DNA from: a virus
Virus record (IMG/VR): IMGVR_UViG_3300017605_001304
Coordinates: 1 to 64,000 of that record
DNA length: 64,000 bases
Reading direction: 5' to 3' (one strand)
The notes beneath the pieces were generated by a model, which saw only the letters and a program-made list of their open reading frames with translations, was not told the origin of the DNA and did no database searches. The translations under genes and the position numbers were made by a program. This document shows, piece after piece, positions 6,562 to 52,988 of this stretch. Positions within the stretch are counted from its first letter, which is position 1, and each line of letters begins with the position of its first letter.

Positions 6562-6768
6562 CTAGATCCCCGCGAAGAGGTTGAGATTCAGCAGCCAGTA
6601 GCCCGCCGGAACCCCGTTCCGTAGCTCCCTGCGGTGCTCCTCCGAAAGGACGTCGCGGCAGGCGGTGTAGAACTCCCACCACAACCCCTCATCGAAGGGA
6701 CGGGGCCAGCCGTCGTGCCACTTCCGCTGCGCCGTGGCCAGCGGCTCCTCGTTCGAGCGGAGGCTCAT
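6562..6768 (-). CDS. mini-gene array 1 member (group 3)
   Basis: 68 residues: KWHDGWPRPFDEGLWWEFYTA, paralogous to both neighbours, with the C-terminus GYWLLNLNLFAGI. Tryptophan-rich. It starts one base after the upstream stop, with GGAG in the upstream gene's last codons. Function unknown. Confidence 0.75.
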   Translation of the reverse strand: MSLRSNEEPLATAQRKWHDGWPRPFDEGLWWEFYTACRDVLSEEHRRELRNGVPAGYWLLNLNLFAGI

Positions 6769-6769
6769 G

Positions 6770-6976
6770 TCACAGGCTCCGGAGGATCGTCTCAACGAGG
6801 CTCCAGGGGAAGTCGAGACGGTGCATCCAACTGCCCTGACGCGGCTGCTTCATGGCGTACCTAAAGTACGGGTCCCACATCTCGTCCAGGAACGGCGCTG
6901 GCCAACTGCTGAACCACGTGATCGGCAGACGCCGGCTGCGCAGGCCGCGCTTATTAGTGGAGTCCGGGAGCAGCAC
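6770..6976 (-). CDS. mini-gene array 1 member (group 3), GTG start
   Basis: 68 residues: TWFSSWPAPFLDEMWDPYFRYAM is the group-3 core and the terminus is VETILRSL. The GTG has GAGG six bases upstream and overlaps the previous gene by 23 bases. Function unknown. Confidence 0.7.
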   Translation of the reverse strand: MLLPDSTNKRGLRSRRLPITWFSSWPAPFLDEMWDPYFRYAMKQPRQGSWMHRLDFPWSLVETILRSL

Positions 6977-7148
6977 TCGGCACCTCTTCAGGCAGAGTGT
7001 TCAACCACGCGGCCGCGGTGTCGAGCTCCTCGCGCTCTTCCTTCGCGGCGAGTCGCTTGGTCGCCCACAGCGCCGACATCTCGATCGAGACGAGGCGCTG
7101 CTCTTCCTTGGCGATCAGGTCACGCAGGATCTCTTTAGGACTCTTCAT
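6954..7148 (-). CDS. small charged helical protein at the head of array 1
   Basis: 64 residues: MKSPKEILRDLIAKEEQRLVSIEMSALWATKRLAAKEEREEL, a charged helix. It is unlike the array families but coupled to them by overlap. The ATG has GGAG 8 bases upstream; the frame is open for 26 further upstream codons of implausible composition. Function unknown. Confidence 0.6.
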   Translation of the reverse strand: MKSPKEILRDLIAKEEQRLVSIEMSALWATKRLAAKEEREELDTAAAWLNTLPEEVPSAAPGLH

Positions 7149-37414: not shown

Positions 37415-37798
37415 TCAGACCCACTCGCCGAGTGGACCGAGGCTCTCGCGAGCGAGCACGACGTCGAGCGTGCTCGGGTAGTAGTGCGTGCTGTCGTAGA
37501 CGCACGTGAGACAGATACAGTCGGCCTCGTGGAGATCCTCCGCCGTCGCCTGCGGCAGCCCCTCCTCACGGCGCAGGTCGCGCCGCTGCTGGTAGAGCGA
37601 CCGTACGGTGTCGAGGATACGGCGACGGCCGACGGCGACGGCCAGGGCGGGTGGAGGGGGACCGGCCTTCACGGCCCGTTTCACGATCCCGAGATACGCT
37701 TCCTGGAGCAGGTCTTCGATATCCAGCGGGTGTCCGCGAACGCGGCCCGCGGCGAACTTGCGCAGTGACGTGCAGACCTGTACCGAGAACGCATCCAT
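37415..37798 (-). CDS. incomplete ECF-like sigma factor (region 2 only)
   Basis: 127 residues. FAAGRVRGHPLDIEDLLQEAYLGIV is region 2.1-2.2 with the core-binding D-x-x-Q-E motif, followed by VGRRRILDTVRSLYQQRRD as 2.3-2.4. Region 4, which reads the -35 element, is missing; the remaining 50 residues contain a CxxC but no HTH. It could bind RNA polymerase core and use only a -10, or act as an anti- or co-sigma. The ATG has GGGGAGGTGAGCG upstream. Confidence 0.8.
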   Translation of the reverse strand: MDAFSVQVCTSLRKFAAGRVRGHPLDIEDLLQEAYLGIVKRAVKAGPPPPALAVAVGRRRILDTVRSLYQQRRDLRREEGLPQATAEDLHEADCICLTCVYDSTHYYPSTLDVVLARESLGPLGEWV

Positions 37799-47653: not shown

Positions 47654-48172
47654 TCAACTCACAGGACTCTTCGGCCCCTCCTCGGTCGGCGGCTTCTTCC
47701 GCCGTGGCCGCTTCGGAACGCTCGGCGAGTCCTGCCGGGTCATGTTCGGTACTTCCATCTTCTGGATCTCGACCTTGCCCTGGCCGGCTGCCATCTCGAA
47801 CAGCGAGTGGAGGAAGCCGCCGGGGGCGACGGGGTCGGCCTGCCGCGGCGCCGGCTGCGCGGCCAGCATGTCCTGCGCGAACTCCTCGGAGATCTTGCGC
47901 AGCTTGACGTAGCGCGTGTCGAACACGACGCGCTTCGGCTGCTTCGCGAGGTCGCCGCTGGCGGTCGCGAGCCACTCCAGGAGCAGCATCGGGTGCTCGT
48001 AGCGGATGATCTTGAACAGGTGGTTGCGCAGGTCGGGATCGGGACCGATCCACGCCTGCCCCCAGCCGCGCTGGATGAACGCCTTCGACTCGAAGTCCAT
48101 GAACCACGCCTGCTCGATCGTCACGAACACGCCAGGAAGGTAGTCGTCAGCGGGAAGGGTTTTCACGATCAC
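47654..48172 (-). CDS. hypothetical protein
   Basis: 172 residues. N-terminal half is compact and aromatic (LPGVFVTIEQAWFMDFESKAFI); the C-terminal third is a proline/lysine/arginine tail (RPRRKKPPTEEGPKSPVS). The start overlaps the stop of the KOW-like gene (ATGA). No family recognised. Confidence 0.75.
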   Translation of the reverse strand: MIVKTLPADDYLPGVFVTIEQAWFMDFESKAFIQRGWGQAWIGPDPDLRNHLFKIIRYEHPMLLLEWLATASGDLAKQPKRVVFDTRYVKLRKISEEFAQDMLAAQPAPRQADPVAPGGFLHSLFEMAAGQGKVEIQKMEVPNMTRQDSPSVPKRPRRKKPPTEEGPKSPVS

Positions 48173-49119
48173 TCTCCTCCCGACAGCGAAGAGACCTGCT
48201 CCGTCACGTCGGGACTGATGTCGAACGGGGTATCGATGCGTCGACCTGACGTCGGCGTCGCCGTGCTGAAGATCCCCCAGCGCGTGAGACGGACCAGCTT
48301 CAGGATCGAGACCGGCAGCAGCGGGAGCGCGTAGCAGACCGGCCTCATCACAAGCTGCAGGCCCTTCCGCTTCGCCAGCCGATGCTCCACCGTCACACCG
48401 AGCTCCGGCACCGCCACGAACTGGACGTTGCCGGGCATGAGTCTACCACGCGCGAAGCGATAGTAGTTCATGCCGCGGCGAGGGTTCCGGGCCGGCTGCC
48501 AGATGTCCGACGGCCTGTAGACGTATCCGCGGTAGCAAGTCTGCGGCTTGCTGACCTGCTTCTTGATGCGCTTGGGCAAGCCCTCCAGCCAGCCCTCGGC
48601 GTACGCGATGTTCGGGTTCTTCGAGGGCACGAGGATGCGGCCGAAGAGCGTCGCGCGGTGCACCAGCAAGACCGGCGTCTTGATCGCGAAGACGTTCGCG
48701 GCGAAGTGCACCGAGCTGCCGGCCTGCTCGATCCGGTCCTGCTCCGCCTGCCCCGAGAACCAGATCCAGTTCTTCGCGATCTGCACGTCCCACTCGTAGG
48801 GGTCGCGGCAGCGGAAGTAGTCGACGCCCTCGTTCCTGAGCTTCTGGATCTGGCGCGTCAGGTACGCGTACGGGTCACCGGGGTCGGGCTTCTTCGCGAG
48901 CTCCGCCTTGAGCCAGTCCTCGCCCACCTCGGCGCAGAACGGGATCGGGACCTCGACCACGACGTCGCGTCGCTGGAGCGCCGTGAGGCGGATCAGGAGC
49001 GTCCGCTCGCGGATTTCGTGCAGCAGGCCCACCCGCGGCGCGAGCGGCCCGTGGACGATCTCAACGCGTTCCCCGACGTGCAGGTCCCGGACGAGAGGCT
49101 TCCCCACCCGAACCCCCAT
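48169..49119 (-). CDS. KOW-like domain protein
   Basis: 316 residues. VGERVEIVHGPLAPRVGLLHEIRERTLLIRL resembles the KOW segment of NusG-type factors (G-E-x-V-x-I-x-x-G-P-x-x...G). The rest is a large unassigned region with many aromatic residues. An antitermination or transcription-associated role is possible. An upstream TTG five codons earlier is an alternative start. It is the first gene of the minus-strand unit leaving the 49 kb intergenic region. Confidence 0.65.
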   Translation of the reverse strand: MGVRVGKPLVRDLHVGERVEIVHGPLAPRVGLLHEIRERTLLIRLTALQRRDVVVEVPIPFCAEVGEDWLKAELAKKPDPGDPYAYLTRQIQKLRNEGVDYFRCRDPYEWDVQIAKNWIWFSGQAEQDRIEQAGSSVHFAANVFAIKTPVLLVHRATLFGRILVPSKNPNIAYAEGWLEGLPKRIKKQVSKPQTCYRGYVYRPSDIWQPARNPRRGMNYYRFARGRLMPGNVQFVAVPELGVTVEHRLAKRKGLQLVMRPVCYALPLLPVSILKLVRLTRWGIFSTATPTSGRRIDTPFDISPDVTEQVSSLSGGE

Positions 49120-49260
49120 TTCAGCCGACAGCAAGCCCTACCTGTCAGTATCGAAAACGGAGATTCGAAAATCTTCGCTCGCTACAAGTCGCTGGTAGGG
49201 AAGGTCTTATGGCCGTTCAGGCGCGCTGCACCCAGGTTCAGTCGTTCGGACGAGTGAACC

Positions 49261-49300
49261 TTGAACCTCCTGGAAACCCACGTTAACCTAGGTTCGACAA
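49261..49300 (-). repeat. copy F of hairpin repeat
   Basis: TTGAACCTCCTGGAAACCCACG with the partner arm AGGTTCGACAA; the loop is diverged. It lies 45 kb from the other copies, in the leader of the minus-strand block, in the same orientation as copies B to E. Confidence 0.65.
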
Positions 49301-49391
49301 GTGCGAGGGGTTCGCTCGGCTGTCCGTGCTCATCTCCTCCTGCGGAAGTCCTCCGCACCGCCGCTGCGAGCTCCTCTACTTCGCTGTTCGA

Positions 49392-49421
49392 GCCCCGGGT
49401 GCCCGCTCAGGCGCCCGGGGC
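49392..49421 (+). terminator. intrinsic terminator, plus strand
   Basis: GCCCCGGGTGCC pairs with GGCGCCCGGGGC at 11 of 12 positions around CGCTCA, followed by GTTTTC. No plus-strand gene precedes it, so it would end an unassigned short transcript. Confidence 0.8.
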
Positions 49422-49474
49422 GTTTTCATGCTGCGGGCCTGCCCGGTCGTCCGCCCCCGGGCCTGGAAACAACG

Positions 49475-49504
49475 CGACCCCTGCAGGAGGACCTGCAGGG
49501 GTCG
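49475..49504 (+). terminator. second strong hairpin, plus strand
   Basis: A perfect 13-bp stem CGACCCCTGCAGG/CCTGCAGGGGTCG with loop AGGA and tail TTGTCC. It follows the first terminator by 50 bases and could act in both directions. Confidence 0.7.
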
Positions 49505-49917
49505 TTGTCCGTCTACCTTGGGGAGGTGGTTGACTCGCGGTCCGCGCGACGGCATGCTGACCGGTGCGTAAGAGTCGGGCTCAGAGAGTACCCGCCAACT
49601 ACGCCGGGTCAAGGGCGTCGTCCCGTGAACGATGAGCCTGGGGTCCCACCTGTACCCCGCCAAACGGCGAACTCTACGGGGATCGGCCTCGGGTGTCCCG
49701 GCGCACAGCTCCGGGGCGATTCCCTCGGGGGCCTTAAAAGCCGAGGGAGGCGTGCCCAATCCTCTGAGCTCCCGCTGATCGCGCGGGGGCCGCCCTCTTC
49801 AGCCGTAAGGCGGGAGGGGGAAGGGGGTGGGCGTTTGACCCCTCTTGCCTTCGGACTTCTCCTAGTATCACCCCCAGGAATGGACACTTCTGTCACGGCT
49901 TACGAGGGGGATCGAGG

Positions 49918-50118
49918 ATGTTCAAGGACCGCTACCGCATGCGGTGGACCCGGGTCGGTGCTGCCGGGTACGTCGGACTCGCGATGCGGGCCTCCAGGAA
50001 CACGACGACGCTGCCGGTCACCGGCGGCAACGGGCAGGTCCTCTTCCTGATGCTGTGGAACCAGGGCACCACGCGCGTCGCGCAAGAGGTCGACCGGCTG
50101 CTCGGGGCACGTAGATGA
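49918..50118 (+). CDS. mini-gene array 2, first member
   Basis: 66 residues, MFKDRYRMRWTRVG to VDRLLGARR. The opening F-K-x-R-x-x-x-R-W recurs in the next two genes; the terminus LLGARR is identical to an array 1 protein and encodes a GGGGCACGTAG ribosome site for the next gene. GGGGG stands seven bases before the ATG. Function unknown. Confidence 0.75.
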   Translation: MFKDRYRMRWTRVGAAGYVGLAMRASRNTTTLPVTGGNGQVLFLMLWNQGTTRVAQEVDRLLGARR

Positions 50119-50330
50119 ACTTCAAGCACCGCTTCGATCTTCGGTGGCGCAACGCGCCGTGGCCGAGCTCCATCATGCCCACCTGGACGTTGCGGGTCGG
50201 TCCGGAAGACGAGCTGACCTTCTCGATGCTGGACGTCAACCGCATCGAGGACATGATGTTCGAGGCGAACCACGGCGCCGAGAACGTGTTCGCGATGAAC
50301 CTCAGCGGCTTGTTCAGGGACCGTTCATGA
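50115..50330 (+). CDS. mini-gene array 2 member
   Basis: 71 residues: MNFKHRFDLRWRN, then LRVGPEDELTFSMLDVNRIEDMMFEANHG and SGLFRDRS. It is the closest paralogue of the next gene, which shares the layout and the LFRDRS ending. Start and stop overlap neighbours by four bases. Function unknown. Confidence 0.8.
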   Translation: MNFKHRFDLRWRNAPWPSSIMPTWTLRVGPEDELTFSMLDVNRIEDMMFEANHGAENVFAMNLSGLFRDRS

Positions 50331-50557
50331 ACTTCAAGAAGCGCTACGAGTTCTGGTGGCAGCCGCAGCGAGAGTGGTTCGGTCGCGTGCCGGGAGAGGT
50401 CGAGTGCGCGCTGTCGATCGGCCCCGGCATCGGGACGATGGTCTTCACGGAGCAGGACGCCGGCAGCATCGGGGACCTCATCTTCAGCGTGAACCACAAC
50501 CCCCGCGGCGAGGGTTTCACCGCGCACCTGCAAGAACTCTTCCGGGATCGGTCATGA
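50327..50557 (+). CDS. mini-gene array 2 member
   Basis: 76 residues: MNFKKRYEFWWQP, SIGPGIGTMVFTEQDAGSIG and LQELFRDRS. The LFRDRS codons (TTCCGGGATCGG) hold the GGGA ribosome site of the next gene, and the same codons do this in the preceding gene. Coupled by ATGA. Function unknown. Confidence 0.8.
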   Translation: MNFKKRYEFWWQPQREWFGRVPGEVECALSIGPGIGTMVFTEQDAGSIGDLIFSVNHNPRGEGFTAHLQELFRDRS

Positions 50558-50775
50558 ACCCGCACGGCCGCTACTACGCGCAGTGGCACACGCAGCGAGG
50601 GTGGCGAGGCGGCAAGTCGCCGAAAGTTCACTACGTCCTGACGCTCGGCCCATGCAGCGACGAGATGGTATTCTCGTGGCAAGACGCTACGTCTGTCTCG
50701 GACCTGCTCGCGATGGACAGCCTCGGCGAGCGCAGCGTCGCCGTGAGCCTGGACCTCTTGCTCGGTGCATCATGA
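50554..50775 (+). CDS. mini-gene array 2 member
   Basis: 73 residues: MNPHGRYYAQWHTQRGW, LTLGPCSDEMVFSWQDATSV and LDLLLGAS. It aligns with the two genes upstream through the GPxxxxMVFxxQDAxS block. Coupled by ATGA on both sides. Function unknown. Confidence 0.8.
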   Translation: MNPHGRYYAQWHTQRGWRGGKSPKVHYVLTLGPCSDEMVFSWQDATSVSDLLAMDSLGERSVAVSLDLLLGAS

Positions 50776-50996
50776 ACATGGCCCGCGCCACGCTGTGTAC
50801 GCTCTACGTGAACGTCAGCGAAGGGGGTGACACACGCCTTTACTTCGATGGCTGGGGCCGTACGCCGACCACGTGGTATATGGCGACCCACGACTGGGTG
50901 CAGCTCACGTTCATGCGGCACCGCGTCGACCTCTGCTCGCACTGGCTCAACGTATTCAAGGACGACGCGCTGAGGACCCTGTTCAAGGCGGCATGA
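50772..50996 (+). CDS. mini-gene array 2 member
   Basis: 74 residues: LCTLYVNVSEGGDTRLYFDGWG, a middle rich in W and H, and the terminus LRTLFKAA. It keeps the strand-turn-strand start and terminal LF of the family. Coupled by ATGA. Function unknown. Confidence 0.75.
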   Translation: MNMARATLCTLYVNVSEGGDTRLYFDGWGRTPTTWYMATHDWVQLTFMRHRVDLCSHWLNVFKDDALRTLFKAA

Positions 50997-51256
50997 ACAT
51001 GAGCATGCGTACCCGTGCCGCGACCGAGTGCCACTGGAACTTGGACAGCCTGAGTGCGGGTGACCTCGCGGTGTATTTCTACCGCGGCGGCATGCAGGTC
51101 TGCGCCATCGCGGTCACCGCCGCCCTCGCTGACGCGATGCTCCAGCTTCGCGACCGTCGAGGGTCCTGCTGCGGCGACCTCGGGCACTGCTCGGTCGAGC
51201 ACAGCGGCGAGGCGGGCTGCAACGAGCTGAGCGACCTGCTCCGGAGCCTCTGGTGA
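50993..51256 (+). CDS. mini-gene array 2 member, cysteine-rich
   Basis: 87 residues. GDLAVYFYRGGMQVCAIAV resembles the next gene (AALYFYCGGRRIEGIAL). The insertion RRGSCCGDLGHCSVEHSGEAGC adds five cysteines and two histidines, a possible metal site. Terminus LLRSLW. Coupled by ATGA and GTGA. Function unknown. Confidence 0.75.
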   Translation: MNMSMRTRAATECHWNLDSLSAGDLAVYFYRGGMQVCAIAVTAALADAMLQLRDRRGSCCGDLGHCSVEHSGEAGCNELSDLLRSLW

Positions 51257-51480
51257 CCTTCCCGCAACTCACGCAGGTCCGCTGGGAGGCCGTCTGGCCG
51301 ACGAACGGCCCGGCTGCCGCGCTCTACTTCTACTGCGGGGGTCGTCGGATCGAGGGGATCGCACTCGACAAGAAGAGCTGGTTCGCGTTCATCGACCTGC
51401 GCGACGAGCTGGAGGGAGTCACCCTCTCCTTCCGGCTCGCCCTCTCCGACGCGGCGGGTGCTCTGTTCGGGGAACCGTGA
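51253..51480 (+). CDS. mini-gene array 2 member, GTG start
   Basis: 75 residues: ALYFYCGGRRIEGIALDKKSWFAFIDLRDELEG, ending AGALFGEP. It is paralogous to the gene before it. The GTG overlaps the upstream stop. Function unknown. Confidence 0.75.
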   Translation: MTFPQLTQVRWEAVWPTNGPAAALYFYCGGRRIEGIALDKKSWFAFIDLRDELEGVTLSFRLALSDAAGALFGEP

Positions 51481-51713
51481 TGTGGATCACGGATGAGGTC
51501 TTCGGCGAAGCAAAGCCGCTGCGCCTGACGGCGGCGCGCAGCAACGAGCTGTCCCGAGTCACGGTTGGCGTGGCCGGAGTGATATGGTCGACGTGCATCT
51601 GCTGGGTCTGCCGCGAGCAGATCGCGACGATTACGGAGTTGCGTCCCCTCTACGATCTCTTCGCTCCCGAAGGGAGCGTTCCTTACACCCTCGTGGACCT
51701 GTTCAAGCCATGA
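51480..51713 (+). CDS. mini-gene array 2 member
   Basis: 77 residues: MWITDEVFGEAKPLRL, VIWSTCICWVCREQIA, and the terminus LVDLFKP. The C-I-C-x-x-C cluster is distinctive. The ATG overlaps the previous stop by one base (TGATG); a GTG one codon earlier is possible. Function unknown. Confidence 0.7.
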   Translation: MWITDEVFGEAKPLRLTAARSNELSRVTVGVAGVIWSTCICWVCREQIATITELRPLYDLFAPEGSVPYTLVDLFKP

Positions 51714-51934
51714 CCACGCTCTCGATTCACGCGAGCTCGCCCATGTACAACCACGGGCTGCGGGTCGACCTCATCGTGGAGATGGAGTCGAAGTCGCTGT
51801 GCTTCTGCGGCAACTGGTCGCGGTGGGACGTGATGACGCCGCTGCTGGAGCTCAACCTGCCGCGCGTTGACGTCGACCTGCGGGAGTGCATGGGGACGGT
51901 GCTGGGGGTTGAGAGCGATACGTCGCCTGAGTGA
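51710..51934 (+). CDS. mini-gene array 2, last member
   Basis: 74 residues: LRVDLIVEMESKSLCFCGNWSRWDVMTPLLELNLPRVDVDL. Coupled by ATGA to the previous gene. Its 3' end overlaps the convergent HTH gene tail-to-tail by 83 bases. Function unknown. Confidence 0.65.
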   Translation: MTTLSIHASSPMYNHGLRVDLIVEMESKSLCFCGNWSRWDVMTPLLELNLPRVDVDLRECMGTVLGVESDTSPE

Positions 51935-52271
51935 CCACGCGGGCGATCGTGTCGATCGAGACGCGGTACGCCTCCGCCAGGGCCCGGTAGGGCAGGCGCT
52001 GCGTCTCGCGCAGGCGGCGGATCTCCTCGACCGAGTCCGGGCTCAGGGCCCGTCCGTGAGCGCCGCGCTCGCTCGGCCGCGACCAGGAGAGGCGCGCCCC
52101 TCGCATCGAGGGCAGGATCGGTCCGCCCCACCCCCGGCGCGTGATCCCGCGGCAGAGCTTGTGGACGGCGGACGGCGTCACGCGAAAGCGTAAGGCGAGC
52201 AGCTTGGCGGCGTGGCCACGAGCTCGCAGCTCGCGCAGCTCTCTGACCTCGGACTCTTCGAGCGTCCTCAT
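51852..52271 (-). CDS. two-HTH regulator, probably leaderless
   Basis: 139 residues. Residues 7-38 (RELRELRARGHAAKLLALRF, VTPSAVHKLC) and 77-112 (VEEIRRLRETQRLPYRALAE, VSIDTIARVV) are two helix-turn-helix units like those found with HNH endonucleases. No nuclease domain is present. The ATG has no ribosome site and lies about 8 bases downstream of a -10 hexamer, so the mRNA is probably leaderless. It is divergent from the operon at 52.38 kb and is the best candidate for the protein that binds the shared palindromes. Confidence 0.75.
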   Translation of the reverse strand: MRTLEESEVRELRELRARGHAAKLLALRFRVTPSAVHKLCRGITRRGWGGPILPSMRGARLSWSRPSERGAHGRALSPDSVEEIRRLRETQRLPYRALAEAYRVSIDTIARVVTQATYRSQPPAPSPCTPAGRRQRAAG

Positions 52272-52279
52272 GGAACGGG

Positions 52280-52307
52280 ATCGTACGGGGCGGGACCTGT
52301 AATACAA
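52280..52307 (-). promoter_or_regulatory. promoter of the two-HTH regulator
   Basis: Minus-strand -35 TTGTAT, 16-base spacer, -10 TACGAT, with the -10 only eight bases from the ATG. A palindrome-like site, GACCTGTAATACAAG (52294-52308 on the plus strand), overlaps the -35, allowing autoregulation. Confidence 0.7.
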
Positions 52308-52312
52308 GAGGC

Positions 52313-52340
52313 TTGACCTGTAATCCAGATATGGTATGAT
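52313..52340 (+). promoter_or_regulatory. promoter with operator for the four-gene operon
   Basis: Plus-strand -35 TTGACC, 16-base spacer, -10 TATGAT. The spacer holds GACCTGTAATCCAGAT, the same position and near-same sequence as at 39.77 and 41.60 kb. This site and the one over the divergent promoter are 21 bp apart, two helical turns. Confidence 0.85.
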
Positions 52341-52379: not shown

Positions 52380-52988
52380 ATGGGAACGCGTGCACGGCAT
52401 CAGGCGTTGAACGCGGAGTGGCCGGCGGTCGTCCCGCCGCTCTCGTACGAGGAGGCGGTGCGGGCCACGAAGAAGCTGCTCCGCGCCGAGCTCAAGATCA
52501 AGCCGCAGGAGTTCAAGCGCACGTCGGGACGACGGTACACGTGGCGGCGGCACGGCGTCTGGTACATCAACCCGAGCCGAGGCTGGCTCGACCTCGTCCA
52601 TGTCCTCTCGCACTACGTGTTCATGCGGACGCACACCCGGCTCCGGCCGCATCACTGGAAGCACGCGAACGTCGAGGCTCGGATGATCCGTACGGTCTTG
52701 CAACGCGGCTGGCTCGACGGCAAGCTGAAGCCGTCGGTGAAGCCCGAGAAGACGCCGGTGGATCGGCTGGAGCGTCTGAAGGGGAGGCTCGTGCGGTGGG
52801 AGGCGAAGAAGCGGCGGGCCGAGAACGCGATCCGGAAGCTCACGAGGAGCATCCGCGCGATCGAGCGCTGCAGAGCCGTCGCCTCGCTCGACCCGACTAC
52901 CGCTTCGTCCACGAACTCATCGAGTATTTCCCCTCTCAACCGATGCGGGGAGACACCTGGATCCTCCTGCACCAGTTCTCCCGCCTGA
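52380..52988 (+). CDS. hypothetical basic protein, first gene of operon
   Basis: 202 residues. Middle region with clustered histidines (WLDLVHVLSHYVFMRTHTRL, then HHWKH) that could bind metal, followed by a basic coiled coil (LERLKGRLVRWEAKKRRAEN). The ATG has AAAGGAGG six bases upstream. Its early promoter and divergent regulator suggest early expression. No family recognised. Confidence 0.8.
   Translation: MGTRARHQALNAEWPAVVPPLSYEEAVRATKKLLRAELKIKPQEFKRTSGRRYTWRRHGVWYINPSRGWLDLVHVLSHYVFMRTHTRLRPHHWKHANVEARMIRTVLQRGWLDGKLKPSVKPEKTPVDRLERLKGRLVRWEAKKRRAENAIRKLTRSIRAIERCRAVASLDPTTASSTNSSSISPLNRCGETPGSSCTSSPA

Follow-up and report, generated by a model that had tools for sequence, protein, structure and literature searches.

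Do nine consecutive mini-genes in a viral genome form one protein family with a common task, or do they share little beyond the way in which they are packed? The question is raised by a run of small genes (array 2, positions 49918–51934) in a 64,000-nt stretch of viral DNA, here called the window, which comprises bases 1–64000 of a 149,155-bp virus record with a GC content of 65%. The window encodes a family A-like DNA polymerase (phrog_17), a DnaB-type helicase, a primase, a UvsX-like recombinase and a portal protein, and a contractile tail sheath is encoded outside the window in the same record. The GC-rich genome is that of a myovirus-type phage. Searches for a close relative found none, with top identities of 41% for the terminase and 48% for the sheath, and megablast of the array 2 region against phages returned no match. 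A sliding clamp was not found among the window proteins searched, the genes outside the window having been searched in part. The genome also encodes a small protein (37415–37798, minus strand) matching sigma-70 region 2 (Pfam, 5e-6), a possible phage sigma factor, and a 473-amino acid pectate-lyase-like protein (L005, positions 4754–6172, minus strand; phrog_27797, 8e-53) that is perhaps a tail depolymerase.

An earlier note on this DNA had described array 2 as nine coupled genes of 66–87 residues, and the coordinates that it gave were exact. All nine genes lie on the plus strand and carry a coding signal: gene 1 (49918–50118; 66 amino acids), gene 2 (50115–50330; 71), gene 3 (50327–50557; 76), gene 4 (50554–50775; 73), gene 5 (50772–50996; 74), gene 6 (50993–51256; 87), gene 7 (51253–51480; 75), gene 8 (51477–51713; 78) and gene 9 (51710–51934; 74), the last closing the chain. 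Genes 7 and 8 start with GTG. Every one of the eight junctions is a 4-nt NTGA overlap (−4 nt), and the co-directional genes carry the Shine-Dalgarno (SD) sequence of the next gene inside the preceding one, as in translationally coupled operons. The safest inference from this −4-nt architecture is that ribosomes would pass along the chain from gene to gene, the 3′ end of each gene holding the ribosome-binding site of the next, so that the proteins would be made together.

GC-rich DNA yields long open frames by chance, and under lax settings (38–110 residues, −4 or −1 overlaps) shuffled sequence produced chains of up to seven. When the search was matched to the array by admitting only ORFs of 60–90 residues joined through 4-nt overlaps, none of 300 order-2 shuffles of the window produced a chain of more than five genes, versus the nine observed. 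All nine frames have a GC3 of 0.81–0.93 (0.92 in gene 2 and 0.89 in gene 3) and a normal codon-position pattern. The approximately 93 mini-genes that our own gene calls place in this record have a mean GC3 of 0.88, versus 0.87 in other genes, and their GC1 is higher than GC2, as in other genes. The GC3 pattern and the matched shuffles, together with paralogy at the protein level, lead us to reject chance open frames for array 2, an explanation that retains a negligible probability.

The relatedness claimed for the nine genes held for part of the array. Comparisons with phmmer among the 93 mini-genes identified genes 2, 3 and 4 as paralogs (1e-9 for genes 3 and 4, 4e-8 for genes 2 and 3, and 7e-4 for genes 2 and 4) and genes 6 and 7 as related (5e-4). 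Gene 1 shares with genes 2–4 the FKxRYxxxW front and the C-terminal tail but not clearly the middle. No homology was detected for genes 5, 8 and 9, and profiles built from genes 1–4 or from genes 6 and 7 did not retrieve them above shuffled sequences. Array 2 is therefore a mixture of single genes and small paralog groups, of which there are at least two. The common beta-rich plan proposed for all nine was not borne out: the (F/Y)xxxW opening is limited to genes 1–4 and the LTF/MVF strand to genes 2–4. AlphaFold2 (AF2) models of two families reached a pLDDT of 44 and 47, too poor for a fold search, and were left out of the inference; the lower value belongs to the model of the beta-rich plan in array 2, whose predicted fold is too unreliable to read.

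Separate arrays of like style do exist, although the 149-kb record contains no fewer than five of them, not the two first proposed. Array 1 (3560–7148, minus strand) has about 20 called mini-genes of 40–72 residues, some of them weak calls, with the same coupling style, a tail motif in 11 of 20 and low lysine. The remaining mini-genes, which are the majority, lie outside the window in array 3 (A3; record positions 132575–133517), array 4 (A4; 135844–140976), array 5 (A5; 141109–147166) and a short cluster (126795–127851). The largest arrays (about 59 genes; record 132575–147166, L005/L006) lie toward the record's right end, where they surround a 701-amino acid protein without a PHROG match and adjoin an AAA ATPase of phrog_10440. 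Not every small-gene run in the record is packed in this way. A set of plus-strand small genes (record 67121–69359, L002) lacks the tail motif and shows few overlaps, most of the genes being 2 nt apart, which indicates two packing styles in one phage.

Paralogy within the arrays is strongly local. At a cut-off of E<1e-3, at which shuffled proteins yield no pairs, 26 of the 27 paralog pairs fell within the same array and 15 of the 27 were immediate neighbors, versus 0.6 expected and a maximum of 4 in 2000 permutations. Such a pattern is what local tandem duplication followed by rapid divergence leaves behind. We accordingly read array 2 as one member of a group of translationally coupled small-protein operons, which would have expanded by such duplications and then diverged very fast.

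Comparison of arrays 1 and 2 revealed no full-length relation above shuffled controls, which argues against a single paralogous family spanning both. One link noted earlier was the LLGARR ending of gene 1 (VDRLLGARR), which is identical to that of an array 1 gene (4061–4210). The identity stands at the protein level but the codons differ (CTGCTCGGGGCACGTAGATGA versus CTGCTGGGAGCGCGAAGATGA), and in gene 1 they overlie the SD sequence of the next gene. The match is therefore partly forced by the coupling and provides no evidence of recent copying. The coupling style is itself insufficient to argue for a common process, because coupled runs of 4–8 small genes are unremarkable in control phages and, among overlapping prokaryotic genes, the −4-nt spacing is the arrangement seen most often and has been described together with coupling (PMC12548453).

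What the arrays do share is a C-terminal tail. Array proteins tend to end in L-x-[DE]-[LI]-[LF], mostly 1–7 residues from the stop codon. The motif is loose, with hydrophobic residues at i, i+3 and i+4 ([LIVFM]xx[LIVFM][LF]), a fourfold enrichment of D/E in position 3 and a preference for L/I followed by L/F in the two positions after that. Of the array genes, 59% have the loose form and about 40% lack it; the rate among other genes is 9%. The terminal LF or LL that the earlier note assigned to all of array 2 is matched by the loose motif in eight of the nine genes, as in NLSGLFRDRS (gene 2), HLQELFRDRS (gene 3), SLDLLLGAS (gene 4), ALRTLFKAA (gene 5), ELSDLLRSLW (gene 6) and TLVDLFKP (gene 8). 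In gene 7 the ending is GALFGEP and the motif is shifted out of register; gene 9 has no more than a weak form (MGTVL), nine residues short of its stop codon.

The regular-expression rates are optimistic, since the pattern was picked after the tails had been viewed, and unseeded motif expectation-maximization was uninformative; we used seeded hold-outs in its place, which lessen but do not remove the bias. A matrix built from array 1 only told array 2 tails apart from non-array C-termini (AUC 0.91, p=2e-5); against shuffled versions of the same tails, its AUC was 0.87. The reverse hold-out, from array 2 to array 1, gave 0.77, and a matrix from arrays 3–5 gave 0.80–0.82 for array 1 and array 2 each. 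Coupled non-array genes of the same phage carry the motif in 8% of cases, which indicates that the tail is not a by-product of coupling. At the junctions, a G-rich, SD-like peak precedes the next start at −12 to −8 and lies downstream of the motif codons. Its position implies that the SD sequence shapes the last residues (GARR, RDRS), whereas an SD constraint as the source of the LF/LL tail is ruled out by the upstream location of the motif and by its scarcity in non-array coupled genes.

Array proteins are also poor in lysine. The amino acid makes up 1.6% of their residues, about one third of its share in the phage's remaining small genes (5.1%; p=2e-13). It is absent altogether from 40 of the 93 array proteins but from only 2 of the 54 non-array small genes. 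The depletion extends to high-scoring calls and to paralog-supported array genes (1.3%), and GC-matched coupled runs in control phages contain 3.75%. The codon AAG is the most depleted (0.34x). By comparison with large genes, the arrays are not short of the SD-like words GAGG, GGAG and GGGG, so that a general avoidance of SD sequences does not account for the lysine loss. The array proteins are enriched in Trp, Leu, Phe and Met, and only two of them exceed a simple transmembrane threshold. Lysine depletion and Trp/Leu/Phe enrichment are present in every array. Hence, the proposal that a like style in separate arrays reflects a common process, which lacks the support of full-length homology, draws some from the cross-array tail, the lysine depletion and their recurrence in three further arrays. 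These common features point to a shared constraint and perhaps a shared mechanism rather than demonstrable common descent.

The flanks of array 2 were also inspected. An 810-nt gap (49108–49917) separates it from a leftward operon. The neighboring protein (48169–49107) had no relatives in the viral contigs or records searched. The gap contains two terminator-like hairpins (49392–49421, plus strand; 49504–49475, minus strand), and neither an Rfam match nor a sigma-70-like promoter upstream of array 2 was found in it. Part of this intergenic region (49110–49420) folds strongly (z −4.4; none of 100 shuffles folded as well) and may be a structured leader or small RNA. On the other side, a convergent minus-strand gene (51852–52271) overlaps the tail of gene 9 by 83 nt. 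It encodes a 139-amino acid protein with two helix-turn-helix (HTH) regions, supported by a frame GC plot and Pfam matches (HTH_31, 2.4e-6; HTH_38, 5.6e-6), and is probably a regulator that neighbors array 2 without being a member of it. Two copies of a palindromic, operator-like sequence, CCTGTAWTACAGG, lie at 52296–52329 between the HTH gene and a divergent plus-strand gene at 52380, which have the twin sites in common. The HTH protein is a candidate regulator of this palindrome. Eight sites with no more than two mismatches, all intergenic, occur in the window (52296, 52317, 3523, 39769 and 41606) and in the rest of the record (66586, 75102 and 116091), with 0.6 expected per 64 kb; several are beside a TTGAC box. 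The sites are probably a phage regulon, and the palindrome is absent upstream of array 2.

In our best reading, the arrays encode small accessory proteins that are specific to this lineage and multiply quickly by duplication. More specifically, the arrays could be coupled operons of fast-diverging proteins with variable fronts and a common C-terminal docking helix that act early in host takeover or counter-defence, a reading to which we assign a probability of roughly 40%. The amphipathic tail would bring the varied fronts to one partner. Retention of the tail amid such divergence is best explained by a docking helix, and nearly as well by a conserved terminal helix of the protein core. The early role is suggested by the frequency with which small, variable, lineage-specific and coupled phage genes without homologs act in this way. 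A tentative alternative, and the one that we consider most seriously, is that these are ordinary runs of small accessory genes without a common function, the tail being a structural habit (a last core helix) extended by 3′ residues that the SD sequence dictates. Coupled runs of 4–8 small genes in many control phages and the prevalence of the −4-nt spacing fit this explanation, as do the position of the post-motif residues on the SD site and the lack of full-length homology across arrays; a motif so loose could also mark the helix that closes the core in small folds unrelated to one another. However, coupled runs in control phages have the tail in 10% of genes and 3.75% lysine versus 51–64% and 1.6% here, coupled genes elsewhere in the same phage seldom carry it, and the hydrophobic part of the tail is upstream of the SD sequence.

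The strict coupling would also suit a role as subunits that are produced in a fixed ratio and joined through the tail helix into a single hetero-oligomeric assembly or a small number of them; the shared hydrophobic character of the helix could promote self-association. The arrays are apart from the structural genes that we found (sheath and portal), and their roughly 93 members and degree of divergence are, to our knowledge, far above those of any known complex, making such assemblies unlikely. Still more doubtful is the possibility that lysine avoidance is itself the point, with proteins that are made or persist when lysine is a liability because of an anticodon nuclease acting on tRNA-Lys or lysine-directed tagging. 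The marked loss of AAG, the many lysine-free proteins and the failure of general SD avoidance as an explanation speak for it; the record contains no tRNA detectable with ARAGORN, and defences that cut tRNA-Lys exist, such as AriB of PARIS (PMC12409363). Yet 53 of the 93 proteins keep lysine, array 2 has one lysine-free member only, and the composition could follow from the fold type. A bolder version of the docking-helix reading, which we regard as a long shot, is an evolvable library of about ninety adaptors whose fronts bind different targets while the tail plugs into one hub (a protease, a polymerase or a phage machine), the proteins being lysine-poor so as to be made or survive under attack on lysine or tRNA-Lys.

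Phages are rich in tiny orphan genes whose roles are mostly unassigned. In this genome, three measurable properties connect about ninety of them: paralogs arranged in tandem, a common tail and a scarcity of lysine. This reduces a set of ORFans to one testable question, namely what the tail binds and why lysine is avoided. If the tail does bind one hub, the arrays would illustrate a phage route to many new effectors by front-end variation.

Searches of Pfam, PHROGs and PADLOC assigned no array member convincingly to a family, including the small proteins of defence and anti-defence systems. Scans of viral contigs with single proteins and array families and tblastn searches of phages retrieved no relatives, solved structures gave no meaningful match, and we found nothing on point in the literature on paralogous mini-gene arrays. 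When the same run-finder was applied to relatives identified by terminase, AAA-ATPase or sheath (including large parts of records of up to 198 kb), no comparable arrays emerged. The runs in these relatives are ordinary, with 4–8 small genes and almost no paralog pairs or tails. The arrays are known from one genome only, an absence elsewhere that is no proof of uniqueness, as many of the related records are fragments with unseen far ends and the nearest records may not have been included.

The −4-nt runs of small genes that are general in phages resemble the arrays in gene size and spacing, and several control contigs have runs of 4–8 genes. They differ in having almost no paralog pairs and the tail in about 10% of genes, whereas neighbors in the arrays are often paralogs and most carry the tail. 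Across 117 control loci, the motif was found in 248 of 2090 small genes; for coupled runs, the counts were 19 of 182 in control phages versus 52 of 101 in this phage (Fisher, 7e-14). Short docking helices are a second point of comparison. Such helices, which include LxxLL-type motifs, the C-terminal clamp-binding tails of T4 and RB69 proteins and the bacterial QL[SD]LF motif, are short, hydrophobic-acidic and often C-terminal, and bring different proteins to one hub. The array tails are likewise short, hydrophobic-acidic and close to the C-terminus. They depart from the clamp-binding QL[SD]LF consensus in having L instead of Q at the first position (position 0) and, at the next (position 1), a polar residue in place of the L of clamp motifs.

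The third comparison is with genes 37–60 of the Bacillus phage SPO1, which are mostly small and are thought to target many host processes, the products of an operon acting together (PMC6873191). Most of the SPO1 genes are separated by gaps and are distributed over several operons with their own promoters, whereas array 2 is a long coupled chain; neither SPO1-type organization nor homology was found in the array genes, which have no convincing PHROG match. Timing and toxicity are established for SPO1, and our comparison is one of layout, with the arrays read from sequence. Both genomes nonetheless cluster mostly small phage genes, and by analogy with the SPO1 host-takeover module, the arrays may constitute a toolkit for host takeover or counter-defence that acts early in infection.
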